Below, in pieces: positions 26,699-38,422 of a DNA stretch of 64,000 bases. Position 1 is the first letter of the stretch. Each line of letters begins with the position of its first letter. Both the position numbers and the translations under genes were made by a program. The notes under the pieces are model-generated. The model was given only the letters and a program-made list of their open reading frames with translations. It ran no database searches and was not told the DNA's origin. Origin of the DNA: Aeromicrobium sp. Sec7.5 (GTDB lineage Bacteria; Actinomycetota; Actinomycetes; Propionibacteriales; Nocardioidaceae); the NCBI RefSeq assembly GCF_036867135.1, contig NZ_JBAJIJ010000001.1, positions 558,001 through 622,000 of the forward strand, given 5' to 3'.

Positions 26699-29434
26699 GT
26701 GACCAGCCTCGTGATCGTCGAGTCGCCGAACAAGGTCCGCAGCATTGCGGGCTACCTCGGCGACGGCTACGTCGTGGACGCCTCGGTGGGTCACATCCGT
26801 GACCTGCCCCAGGGCGCCGACGAGGTCCCGGCCAAGTACAAGGGGCTGCCCTGGGCACGCCTCGGGGTCGACATCGACAACGACTTCGAGCCGGTCTACG
26901 TCGTCTCGGCCGGCAAGAAGTCGCAGATCACCAAGCTCAAGAAGCTCCTCAAGGACGCCGACGAGCTCGTGCTGGCGACGGATGAGGACCGCGAGGGCGA
27001 GGCCATCGCGTGGCACCTGCTCGACGAGCTCAAGCCCAACGTCCCGGTCAAGCGCATCGTCTTCAACGAGATCACCAAGGAGGCGATCCAGCGCGCGATC
27101 GCCAACCCCCGTGACGTCGACATGGACCTGGTCGACGCGCAGGAGACCCGCCGCATCCTCGATCGTCTCTACGGCTACGAGGTCAGCCCGGTCCTGTGGA
27201 AGAAGGTCATGAGCGGCCTGTCGGCCGGTCGCGTGCAGTCCGTCGCGACCCGCCTGGTGGTCGAGCGCGAGCGCGAGCGCATCGCGTTCCGGTCCGCGTC
27301 CTACTGGGACCTCGACGCCACGTTCGACGCGAACGAGAAGCACGATCCGCAGTTCTTCCCCGCCCGACTCATGACGGTCGAGGGCAAGCGCATCGCCACC
27401 GGGTCGGCGTTCGGTGCCGACGGCCAGCTCAAGAACCCCGAGGTCGTGCAGCTCGACGAGGCCTCGGTCACGACGTTGGCCGAGGGCCTGCGCGGTCGCC
27501 CCCTCACGGTGGCCTCGGTCGAGGCCAAGCCGTACTCGCGCAAGCCGTACGCCCCGTTCCGCACCACGACGATGCAGCAGGAGGCCTCCCGCAAGTTCGG
27601 CTGGGGCGCCGCTCGCACGATGCAGGTCGCGCAGCGCCTCTACGAGGGCGGCTACATCACCTACATGCGGACCGACTCCTCGACGCTGAGCCAGACCGCC
27701 CTCAACGCGGCCCGCGCCCAGGTCGGCGAGCTGTACGGCGCGGCCTACCTGCCCGACAAGCCGCGCGTCTACGCCGGTACCTCGAAGAACGCGCAGGAGG
27801 CCCACGAGGCCATCCGCCCCGCCGGCGAGCGGTTCCGCACGCCGCAGAAGGCCGGCCTCTCCGGCGACGAGGCGAAGCTCTACGAGCTGATCTGGAAGCG
27901 CACGATCGCCTCGCAGATGAAGGACGCCCAGGGCGAGCAGCTCTCGATCAAGCTCGCCGGCGACGCCACCGACGGCCGCGCGGTCGAGTTCACCGCGTCG
28001 GGCCGGACGATCACGTTCCACGGCTTCCTCAAGGCGTACGTCGAGACGCACGAGGACCCGACGGCCCAGGGCGACGACCAGCAGACCAAGCTGCCCAACC
28101 TCGCCCAGGGCGACACGGTCCTGGCGCACGAGCTGGTGCCCAGCGGCCACGAGACGAAGCCGCCGGCGCGCTACACCGAGGCCAGCCTGATCAAGGAGCT
28201 CGAGGAGCGCGAGATCGGTCGCCCCTCCACCTACGCCTCGATCATCAACACGATCCAGAACCGCGGCTACGTCTACAAGAAGGGCACCGCGCTGGTCCCG
28301 GCGTGGATCGCCTTCAGTGTCGTGCGGCTGATGGAGCAGCACTTCAGCCGGCTGGTCGACTACTCCTTCACGGCGCAGCTCGAGGGCGTGCTCGACGAGG
28401 TCGCGCACGGTCGCGAGGACCGCCTTCGCGTGCTGCAGGGCTTCTGGTCCGGCGACAACGAGGGCGACACCGGCCTCAAGAAGCTCGTCGAGAACCTCCC
28501 CGACATCGACGCCCGTGGCCTGGCCACGTTCGACCTCGGCGAGGGCGTCGCGGTGCGCGTCGGCCGCTACGGCCCGTACGTCGAGGGCCCGCCGATGGTG
28601 CCCGGCGACGGTGGCACCGAGGTGCCCACCCGCGCCAACGTGCCCGAGGACCTCCCGCCCGACGAGCTCACGCTCGACGCGGCCCGTGAGCTGCTGCAGA
28701 ACCCGGCCGGCCAGGAGAAGCACCTCGGCACCCACCCGGAGTCGGGTCTGGACGTCGTGGCCCGCAACGGCCGCTACGGTCCCTACGTCGTGGAGTCGCT
28801 GCCCGACGGCTCGCCCAAGTCGGCCAAGCCGCGCACGTCCAGCCTGTTCAAGACGATGGACCTCGACTCGCTCTCGCTCGACGACGCGGTCAAGCTGCTC
28901 ACGCTGCCTCGCGTCGTCGGCACGGGCGAGGACGGCGAGGAGATCACGGCGCTGAACGGCCGCTACGGTCCGTACCTCAAGAAGGGCACCGACTCGCGGT
29001 CGATCGAGACCGAGGAGCAGCTGCTCACCCTGACCGAGGCCGAGGCCCGCGTCATCTACTCGCAGCCGAAGACGTATGGCCGGCGTGCCGCCGCGGCCCC
29101 GTTGAAGGAGCTCGGCGTCGACCCGGTCAGCGAGAAGCCGATCGTCGTCAAGGACGGCCGCTTCGGGCCCTACGTCACCGACGGCGACCACAACGCGAGC
29201 CTGCGCAAGGACGACGACGTCGACACGATCACGCCGGAGCGCGCGCACGAGCTGCTTGCGGAGCGCCGGGCCAAGGCCCCCGCGAAGAAGGGCGCCAAGA
29301 AGGCGGCCAAGAAGTCGCCGGCCAAGAAGACGGCGGCGAAGAAGACGGCCGCGAAGAAGACCGCCGCGAAGAAGACGCCGGCCAAGAAGACCGCCGCCAA
29401 GAAGACGGGCACCTCGGCGAAGAAGGCGGAGTAG
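26699..29434 (+). CDS. topA: DNA topoisomerase I
   Basis: 911 residues. TOPRIM domain at the N-terminus ('LVIVESPNKV' with Glu, 'LATDEDREGEA' with the Asp-x-Asp-x-Glu metal site), the catalytic 'GGYITYMRTDSSTL' with Tyr322, then repeated 'GRYGPYV' topoisomerase C-terminal modules in place of zinc fingers, and a lysine-rich tail of PAKKT/AAKKT repeats (about residues 860-911), as in other actinobacteria. GTG 26699 has AGGA at 26688-26691. It relaxes negative supercoils through a 5'-phosphotyrosine intermediate; the basic tail increases DNA binding. Confidence 0.97.
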   Translation: MTSLVIVESPNKVRSIAGYLGDGYVVDASVGHIRDLPQGADEVPAKYKGLPWARLGVDIDNDFEPVYVVSAGKKSQITKLKKLLKDADELVLATDEDREGEAIAWHLLDELKPNVPVKRIVFNEITKEAIQRAIANPRDVDMDLVDAQETRRILDRLYGYEVSPVLWKKVMSGLSAGRVQSVATRLVVERERERIAFRSASYWDLDATFDANEKHDPQFFPARLMTVEGKRIATGSAFGADGQLKNPEVVQLDEASVTTLAEGLRGRPLTVASVEAKPYSRKPYAPFRTTTMQQEASRKFGWGAARTMQVAQRLYEGGYITYMRTDSSTLSQTALNAARAQVGELYGAAYLPDKPRVYAGTSKNAQEAHEAIRPAGERFRTPQKAGLSGDEAKLYELIWKRTIASQMKDAQGEQLSIKLAGDATDGRAVEFTASGRTITFHGFLKAYVETHEDPTAQGDDQQTKLPNLAQGDTVLAHELVPSGHETKPPARYTEASLIKELEEREIGRPSTYASIINTIQNRGYVYKKGTALVPAWIAFSVVRLMEQHFSRLVDYSFTAQLEGVLDEVAHGREDRLRVLQGFWSGDNEGDTGLKKLVENLPDIDARGLATFDLGEGVAVRVGRYGPYVEGPPMVPGDGGTEVPTRANVPEDLPPDELTLDAARELLQNPAGQEKHLGTHPESGLDVVARNGRYGPYVVESLPDGSPKSAKPRTSSLFKTMDLDSLSLDDAVKLLTLPRVVGTGEDGEEITALNGRYGPYLKKGTDSRSIETEEQLLTLTEAEARVIYSQPKTYGRRAAAAPLKELGVDPVSEKPIVVKDGRFGPYVTDGDHNASLRKDDDVDTITPERAHELLAERRAKAPAKKGAKKAAKKSPAKKTAAKKTAAKKTAAKKTPAKKTAAKKTGTSAKKAE

Positions 29435-37267: not shown

Positions 37268-37297
37268 TTCGCCTCCCCGTCCCGGGGTGGGTAAAGT
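37268..37297 (+). promoter_or_regulatory. Candidate tRNA-Thr promoter
   Basis: TTCGCC (37268-37273) and TAAAGT (37292-37297) with 18-bp spacing, about 37 bp before the mature tRNA 5' end. Confidence 0.4.
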
Positions 37298-37334
37298 CGG
37301 GCTTCGGTCCGACGGGCGATCCTCGGCGGACTCC

Positions 37335-37410
37335 GCCGCCTTAGCTCAGTCGGCAGAGCGTCTCACTCGTAATGAGAAGGTCGTCGGTTCGATTCCGACA
37401 GGCGGCTCCA
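37335..37410 (+). tRNA. tRNA-Thr (anticodon CGT)
   Basis: A complete 76-nt cloverleaf with encoded CCA. Acceptor GCCGCCT pairs with AGGCGGC; D stem GCTC/GAGC; anticodon stem TCTCA/TGAGA around loop CTCGTAA, anticodon CGT at 37368-37370 with A37; T arm GTCGG-TTCGATT-CCGAC. Reads the ACG codon. It is followed at once by a hairpin terminator and by six tandem copies of its 3' portion. Confidence 0.95.
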
Positions 37411-38241
37411 CGCCAGAACCCCAGCCACGTGCTGGGGTTCTGTCGTTGGTGGGTGCGGGAGGGCCTCAGCTCGACCCGGCAGGGCGTCTCACTCGTCATG
37501 AGAAGGTCGTCGGTTCGATTCCGACAGGCGGCTCCACGCCAGAACCCCAGCCACGTGCTGGGGTTCTGTCGTTGGTGGGTGCGGGAGGGCCTCAGCTCGA
37601 CCCGGCAGGGCGTCTCACTCGTCATGAGAAGGTCGTCGGTTCGATTCCGACAGGCGGCTCCACGCCAGAACCCCAGCCACGTGCTGGGGTTCTGTCGTTG
37701 GTGGGTGCGGGAGGGCCTCAGCTCGACCCGGCAGGGCGTCTCACTCGTCATGAGAAGGTCGTCGGTTCGATTCCGACAGGCGGCTCCACGCCAGAACCCC
37801 AGCCACGTGCTGGGGTTCTGTCGTTGGTGGGTGCGGGAGGGCCTCAGCTCGACCCGGCAGGGCGTCTCACTCGTCATGAGAAGGTCGTCGGTTCGATTCC
37901 GACAGGCGGCTCCACGCCAGAACCCCAGCCACGTGCTGGGGTTCTGTCGTTGGTGGGTGCGGGAGGGCCTCAGCTCGACCCGGCAGGGCGTCTCACTCGT
38001 CATGAGAAGGTCGTCGGTTCGATTCCGACAGGCGGCTCCACGCCAGAACCCCAGCCACGTGCTGGGGTTCTGTCGTTGGTGGGTGCGGGAGGGCCTCAGC
38101 TCGACCCGGCAGGGCGTCTCACTCGTCATGAGAAGGTCGTCGGTTCGATTCCGACAGGCGGCTCCACGCCAGAACCCCAGCCACGTGCTGGGGTTCTGTC
38201 GTTGGTGGGTGCGGGAGGGCCTCAGCTCGACCCGGCAGGGC
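37411..38241 (+). repeat. 126-bp tandem repeat array built from tRNA-Thr and its terminator
   Basis: Six identical full units (37411-38166) and a truncated seventh (38167-38241). Each full unit carries the terminator hairpin, a spacer, and a 77-nt tRNA-like body ending CCA at 37460-37536, 37586-37662, 37712-37788, 37838-37914, 37964-38040 and 38090-38166. The bodies keep the anticodon arm with CGT, the T arm and 3' acceptor strand, but have C instead of A at position 37 and a 5' acceptor strand AGGGCCT that pairs only at its inner four positions. The D stem GCTC/GGGC is still possible. As 126 is a multiple of three, three long repeat ORFs result; they are not genes. Confidence 0.9.
37415..37441 (+). 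terminator. tRNA-Thr terminator hairpin
   Basis: AGAACCCCAGC and GCTGGGGTTCT form a perfect 11-bp stem with CACGT loop, 4 bp after the CCA. The same hairpin recurs every 126 bp, the last at 38171-38197. Confidence 0.75.
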
Positions 38242-38260
38242 TGGGGCGCCCCGAACGCAG

Positions 38261-38289
38261 CAGGACCCCGGCCACCGGCCAGGGTCCTG
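38261..38289. terminator. Hairpin between repeat array and KdpF-like gene
   Basis: CAGGACCC (38261-38268) and GGGTCCTG (38282-38289) enclose a GGCC/GGCC inner stem. It could end transcription from either side. Confidence 0.55.
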
Positions 38290-38308
38290 ATCGTTCGCGC
38301 GAGGTGGT

Positions 38309-38422
38309 TCAGCCGTGCTGGCCGGATCCGCGCTCGAACAGCACGGGGTAGATCACCACGGCGAGCAAGTAAGCCTCCAGGAGCACAAGAGTTGCCACGA
38401 TGAGTCCGAGCCACTCGTCCAC
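38309..38422 (-). CDS. KdpF-like single-helix micropeptide
   Basis: A 37-residue ORF from GTG 38422, which has GGAGG 4 nt upstream; an ATG at 38452 would give 47 residues. One membrane helix, 'LGLIVATLVLLEAYLLAVVI' followed by YPVLFERG, resembles KdpF, the small stabilising subunit of the Kdp K+ ATPase (YL..A...P..F pattern). No kdpA, kdpB or kdpC is nearby. It lies 60 bp downstream of the aminotransferase gene on the same strand. Coding status is supported by the start site and hydrophobic profile; the KdpF link is a resemblance only. Confidence 0.45.
   Translation of the reverse strand: MDEWLGLIVATLVLLEAYLLAVVIYPVLFERGSGQHG

Follow-up and report, generated by a model that had tools for sequence, protein, structure and literature searches.

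The closest known case to the array described here is that of the tyrT/tyrV repeats of Escherichia coli (rttR RNA; Rfam family RtT, RF00391), in which a tandem repeat lies directly 3' of a tRNA gene and its units repeat the 3' end of that tRNA. In the tyrV region a 178-bp array of 3.1 copies follows the tRNA, 19 of the last 24 nucleotides of the tRNA-Tyr are matched again at +178, +356, and +534, and both rttR and tpr are annotated. A second point of comparison is provided by the attR fragments of tyrosine integrases of the anticodon-loop type, which are displaced tRNA 3' halves, and a third by tRNA-Other of Bacillus cereus, a single gene that lies at an island-prone tRNA site, has mapped transcripts, and is reported to encode a tRNA-like body judged non-translational (PMC3399842). 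Literature searches on pseudo-tRNA arrays gave, among the matches listed, no bacterial chromosomal array of the present kind, those on rtT/tyrT gave nothing on tyrT repeats among the matches listed, and no paper matched Aeromicrobium together with tRNA-Thr.

The window, that is, the whole 64-kb stretch of Aeromicrobium sp. Sec7.5 DNA that was analyzed (G000 in the locus comparisons), contained one tRNA found by ARAGORN, a tRNA-Thr(CGT) with A37 at positions 37335-37410 on the plus strand, on which all array features given below also lie. TAAAGT at 37292-37297 is the likely -10 element of its promoter, judging from the sequence. Tandem Repeats Finder detected a 126-bp period spanning 37351-38241 in about 7.1 copies. 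The first, the parent copy (37351-37476), comprises the tRNA 3' part, a hairpin, a spacer, and a pseudo-tRNA 5' half. It is followed at 37477-38232 by six units (37477-37602, 37603-37728, 37729-37854, 37855-37980, 37981-38106, and 38107-38232), among which direct comparison found 0 differences. The pseudo-tRNA bodies of these units, all with C37, occupy about 37463-37536, 37589-37662, 37715-37788, 37841-37914, 37967-38040, and 38093-38166. Parent copy and units differ at 2 of 126 positions, through a change from A to G at tRNA position 23 and one from A to C at position 37, and tRNA positions 38-76 are the same in the parent and all six units. A seventh pseudo-tRNA 5' half, without a 3' half, closes the array at 38219-38241. 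ARAGORN, the repeat finder, and direct comparison confirmed the tandem array downstream of tRNA-Thr(CGT) as an earlier, sequence-only reading of this DNA had described it, with six mutually identical 126-bp units that carry C for A at position 37; the copy number of six is based on one assembly.

A perfect 12-bp hairpin with a 5-nt loop lies 3' of the tRNA at 37414-37442 and recurs identically in every unit. It is terminator-like with no T-run (U-run in the RNA), and a consensus scan called no terminator, so that a termination role is putative. The sequence-only reading had assigned each unit an 11-bp terminator, of which the hairpin in each unit stands, with a stem of 12 bp rather than 11, and the terminator is presumptive. 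Frames of 343-357 aa are open through the array (37287-38414), two on the plus and one on the minus strand. They stay open because 126 is divisible by three in GC-rich DNA, which explains them well enough that a protein-coding repeat was rejected. Annotators should beware that such frames could be called as false repetitive proteins.

Against the Rfam tRNA model the unit bodies scored 30.3 bits over positions 4-67 (gathering score, 29) and the parent 72.3 bits, which supplies the per-copy scores that had been proposed as a check; ARAGORN called the parent only and none of the units. The Rfam alignment agrees with the earlier statement that the unit acceptor pairs at four of seven positions (GCCT with AGGC) and that the D stem still pairs. 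U8 and A14 are near universal in tRNAs, as is A37 in tRNAs for ANN codons. The unit has C8, G14, and C37 instead and received no tRNA-finder call with all stems, and the changes at positions 8 and 14 have probably broken the tRNA core. The argument that C37 should bar the t6A modification is sound in principle. In this window the unit cloverleaf with its four-pair acceptor folds at -19.9 versus an optimum of -26.5. Additionally, the unit contains no TA dinucleotide, which precludes a TAnnnT -10 box on both strands, whereas in the genus loci inspected by eye the tRNA is preceded, at about the place of TAAAGT, by a TAnnnT box with a GGGCGATCC-like leader. A promoter scan found no site in the unit, which is weak evidence, since the parent tRNA also scores none. 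A role of the units in translation is unlikely; most likely they have neither a promoter nor a function in translation, and the array probably has no function of its own.

Being a tandem repeat directly 3' of a tRNA, with units that repeat the tRNA 3' end, the array shares both features of the E. coli tyrT/tyrV repeats, and we file it with the tRNA-tail repeats. Unlike in the E. coli repeats, each unit here contains a complete pseudo-tRNA whose 5' half has decayed, the six copies are identical and have a hairpin each, and a different tRNA in a different phylum is involved. Its RNA family is not RtT: Rfam RtT had no match in this genome, the E. coli control being positive, and homology to RtT was rejected accordingly. 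It is thus filed apart from RtT and adds to E. coli tyrT a second case of such arrays, one that is more striking and comes from a phylogenetically remote host. With attR fragments it has in common the displaced tRNA 3' half and the use of the same tRNA by elements within the genus; unlike them, it is a tandem array whose 5' half is tRNA-like, and no tyrosine integrase was found near it. The tRNA-like body judged non-translational and the island-prone tRNA site recall B. cereus tRNA-Other (PMC3399842), which is a single gene with mapped transcripts, unlike the tandem array here, known from sequence.

To place the array among its relatives, 60 loci from the genus and family, around the tRNA or other matches, were scanned for extra 3' halves. 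The tRNA was placed in 46 genus loci, the window among them (G003, G013, and G015 left out). Units directly follow it in seven of these, and the other 39 have no unit in the DNA seen. The downstream DNA ends early in three of the 46, after 74 bp in G022, 291 bp in G031, and 255 bp in G046. Besides the six units of the window, there is one complete unit in G004 (locus L034), two in G010, one plus an internally deleted copy, recognized by eye, in G037, one truncated in the T arm in G031 (L059; seen by eye and confirmed by a looser scan), one with N runs in G011, and at least 3, with a period of 86 and a contig break, in G046. The looser scan of the 46 loci recovered partial copies in the same seven and a distal copy in G019, and no partial copy in the DNA seen at the other 38. 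In G052, which belongs to a different genus, a distal copy lies 5.4 kb away. Counting units in related genomes, another check suggested beforehand, therefore revealed patchy presence and varying number, with relatives at several stages: a tRNA-like single unit, two units, decayed ones, and six identical ones.

The G004 unit was called a tRNA-Thr(CGT) by ARAGORN, scored 43.2 bits across the whole tRNA model, and has a cloverleaf at -27.1, near the optimum of -28.8; it is a less decayed stage. In the units of G010 and G037 (group B) the anticodon stem is lost, as judged by eye. In a tree of the 345 bp preceding the tRNA, many forks of which are weak, G000, G004, G031, and G002 form one clade, to which G010/G037, G011, and G046 do not belong; G002 thus has no unit despite its position inside the G000 clade. 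This placement implies either that gain and loss both occur or that units had more than one origin. The sequence-only reading had also noted that the unit boundary fits recombination between CGGCAGAGC and CGGCAGGGC. That junction is present, and the single complete unit of G004 and the truncated one of G031 suggest that the pseudo-tRNA is older than the amplification. The birth and decay of pseudo-tRNA arrays can be traced at one locus.

Units are followed by a hairpin in G000, G004, G010, and G037 and, so far as its sequence can be read, in G011, but not in G046 or after the truncated unit of G031. Parent and unit hairpins agree at 1.00 within G000 and 0.97 within G004; across the two genomes the agreement is 0.46. 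Two hairpin types are swapped between parent and units in G010 and G037. Both the agreement within genomes and the swapped types are predicted by exchange within the array. Assemblies break or contain N runs at like repeats (L074/L075 of G046 and L041/L091 of G011), and arrays are probably undercounted in draft genomes for that reason.

We chose 27 stretches that precede extra 3' halves and compared each with the tRNA 5' half, using 1000 dinucleotide shuffles; the set omits other-arm copies (G008, G014, and one each of G009 and G026) and several A37 copies from outside the genus. Groups A and B supplied six of the stretches (G000, G004, G031, two of G010, and G037), and these were tRNA-like, with p from 0.001 to 0.009. 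The other 21 gave p of 0.089 or more, among them those of G011 and G046 and the chosen distal copies. The resemblance of the spacer to an old tRNA 5' half, previously noticed by inspection, was upheld in this comparison (p=0.001), and it indicates that the units of this strain stem from a whole tRNA copy. The unit type of G011 and G046 looks like a 3'-half scar.

We consider it the best explanation, with a probability of roughly 0.6, that the units are a decayed duplicate of the tRNA and its hairpin, with the 3' part kept by exchange, recently amplified to six and without function. A copy of tRNA-Thr(CGT) and its downstream hairpin would have arisen beside the gene, either through plain tandem duplication or as what an integrated element left behind, after which the 5' half of the duplicate would have decayed and position 37 turned to C. 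The 3' half, hairpin, and spacer would then form a direct repeat of about 100 bp that permits unequal crossing-over or slippage, and such exchange may add and remove units while keeping parent and units alike. The unit 3' half and hairpin would remain parent-like because exchange keeps copying them. A recent round of exchange may have lifted the copy number to six in this strain, as the identity of the six units suggests; the recent expansion entertained in the sequence-only reading gains support from that identity, from the patchy presence and number of units in the genus, and from the decayed copies. The array, the identity of its units, the decayed 5' half, and the varied numbers and truncated and deleted units of relatives are there to be seen, and from them we infer the mechanism of exchange, the age, and the lack of function. 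Three observations count against this explanation: the recurrence of C37, which plain decay does not predict; the hairpin after most units, which selection could keep; and the units of G011 and G046, whose lack of a tRNA-like 5' half weakens a single origin for all arrays.

The recurrence of C37 was examined by scanning 341 family genomes with the pattern CGTxATGNNNNGGTCNNNGGTTCGANYCC. A C copy was found in 12 of the 341, a G copy in 1, and a T copy in none; A37 copies fall outside this count, since the pattern cannot tell them from tRNA genes. Grouped by lineage, there were ten C lineages versus one other, and at least 10 C among 11 at equal odds has a probability of 1.3e-4, a value that assumes independence of lineages that we grouped ourselves and that may not be independent. 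A class sample of 394 genomes had 8 with a match, of which the three outside the family comprised two G copies and a single C, so that the C excess is seen only inside the family. C37 is found both in units with dissimilar 5' halves (groups A, B, and G011/G046) and in 3'-half copies from further genera. In genome_contigs the C37 core had named matches in 6 stretches of 5 genomes, all Aeromicrobium, and in viral_contigs it had no exact match; C37 was consequently ruled out as a phage hallmark.

C37 copies also occur away from the tRNA. In G340 and G059 they are accompanied by hairpins and lie about 2.5 kb away, and in G298 one lies at about 7 kb, with no PF00589 match near in any of the three. 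Loci L127 and L128, from two genomes of other Nocardioidaceae genera, show this arrangement, a C37 3' half and a hairpin some 2.5 kb past the tRNA and away from any PF00589 match. The C37 copy of G361 has an integrase domain about 350 bp away, and that of G013 has an arm like the arm of A37 elements; both fit an attachment core. It seems quite unlikely that C37 is other than chance in the sense that non-translating mimics of tRNA-Thr(CGT) were kept or arose in about ten Nocardioidaceae lineages, either through an attachment core or as a useful RNA without t6A, for instance a decoy, and were amplified sixfold here. Selection for C37, if it exists, would indicate a use of tRNA mimics or a common attachment core.

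tRNA-Thr(CGT) is an integration hot spot in Aeromicrobium. An integrase lies beside the tRNA in 6 of the 46 genus loci (five intact frames and a short match in G041), in a scan that used the five same-locus integrases as queries and can miss unlike ones. In G018, G021, G025, G027, and G035, the stop-free frame of the integrase starts within about 100 bp of the tRNA end, and the distal 3' halves of these five all have A37. Microbacterium phage vB_MoxS-R1 starts with an A37 3' half, followed by a hairpin and, about 120 bp on, an integrase. For Arthrobacter phage Hestia, tRNA-Thr-CGT is listed as attB, with a 52-bp core and reconstruction of the tRNA (PMC10865867). The units could accordingly be attachment-site scars: an element would bring a 3' half and hairpin, the displaced host half would become attR, the element would be lost, and the remainder would be amplified, with C37 as the base of one attP core lineage. 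The elements at this tRNA in the genus and in these phages favor such an origin, as do the C37 copy of G361 and a similar left arm common to the distal 3' halves of G021, G027, G035, G003, and G013, of which that of G013 has C37. The other four of these five copies have A37, however, and the exact C37 core is absent from viral_contigs.

At the array itself, a displaced tRNA 3' half lies downstream of the tRNA, as in an attR scar, but searches for tyrosine integrases found no integrase or element genes between or beside the tRNA and the copy. A whole-genome PF00589 search gave no match near the array, the nearest match being about 160 kb off, and tblastn of the 2.6 kb downstream of the tRNA detected no integrase; a live integrative element at the array was rejected on the distance of that PF00589 match. 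Among the seven unit loci none has an integrase in the DNA examined (which is short in G031 and G046), compared with 6 of the other 39, a difference that is not significant. An element-derived, non-tRNA-like 5' side, another feature of attR scars, is likewise missing in groups A and B, the only tRNA-like stretches of the 27; the arms at the other attR-like sites in the set and the 5' sides of the G011/G046 units are not tRNA-like. As these two features are lacking, we do not class the array as an att scar, and we regard an origin of the units as attachment scars as rather unlikely. Thus, of the att-site accretion put forward in the sequence-only reading, the use of the same tRNA by elements in other Aeromicrobium holds true, while the missing tyrosine integrase and the tRNA-derived 5' half speak against it here; the search for an integrase at the same tRNA, which that reading had recommended, turned up no tyrosine integrase near the array.

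Compared with decay and exchange, a functional product is very doubtful. The units would yield a tRNA-like RNA that acts as a regulator, as a decoy for tRNA-cutting enzymes, or as a source of 3' tRNA halves, and C37 would be selected to block t6A or recognition. This would account for the recurrent C37 and agrees with a unit score barely above the Rfam gathering score, and precedents exist in the rttR annotated in E. coli and tRNA-Other of B. cereus (PMC3399842). In T6 phage, tRNA genes are reported to be amplified against a tRNA-cutting defense (PMC13096335). The decoy or regulatory RNA suggested earlier nevertheless fares poorly, as the unit has neither a promoter-like site nor a TA, positions 8 and 14 are changed in a core that is likely disrupted, group B units have lost the anticodon stem, and 39 of the 46 genus loci lack a unit in the DNA seen, with truncated or deleted copies in two more.

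That the copy number is an assembly artefact is highly improbable: 756 bp of identical repeats are hard for short reads, and similar repeats coincide with a break in G046 and with N runs in G011, but the assembly of the window has 4 contigs and is given as 100% complete, and units are also carried by the separate assemblies of relatives.

Two minor observations were made elsewhere. A near-identical stretch with a tRNA-Thr 3' half preceded by CGACGTGATT occurs at some distance from the tRNA in three Aeromicrobium genomes (L149, L151, and L154, from G008, G014, and G009) and also on a Tsukamurella plasmid (L171, 2420-2560). Matches of 32 nt on one Rhodococcus, one Pseudonocardia, and the same Tsukamurella plasmid all adjoin genes for an antibiotic biosynthesis monooxygenase and for an ISL3-type transposase (ISPfr2). 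The CGACGTGATT stretch looks like a travelling module. Within the window, positions 29297-29408 hold a tandem repeat of 15/30/45 bp with the consensus AAGACGGCCGCCAAG, one frame of which would give a lysine-alanine-rich tail, probably the end of a DNA-binding protein.
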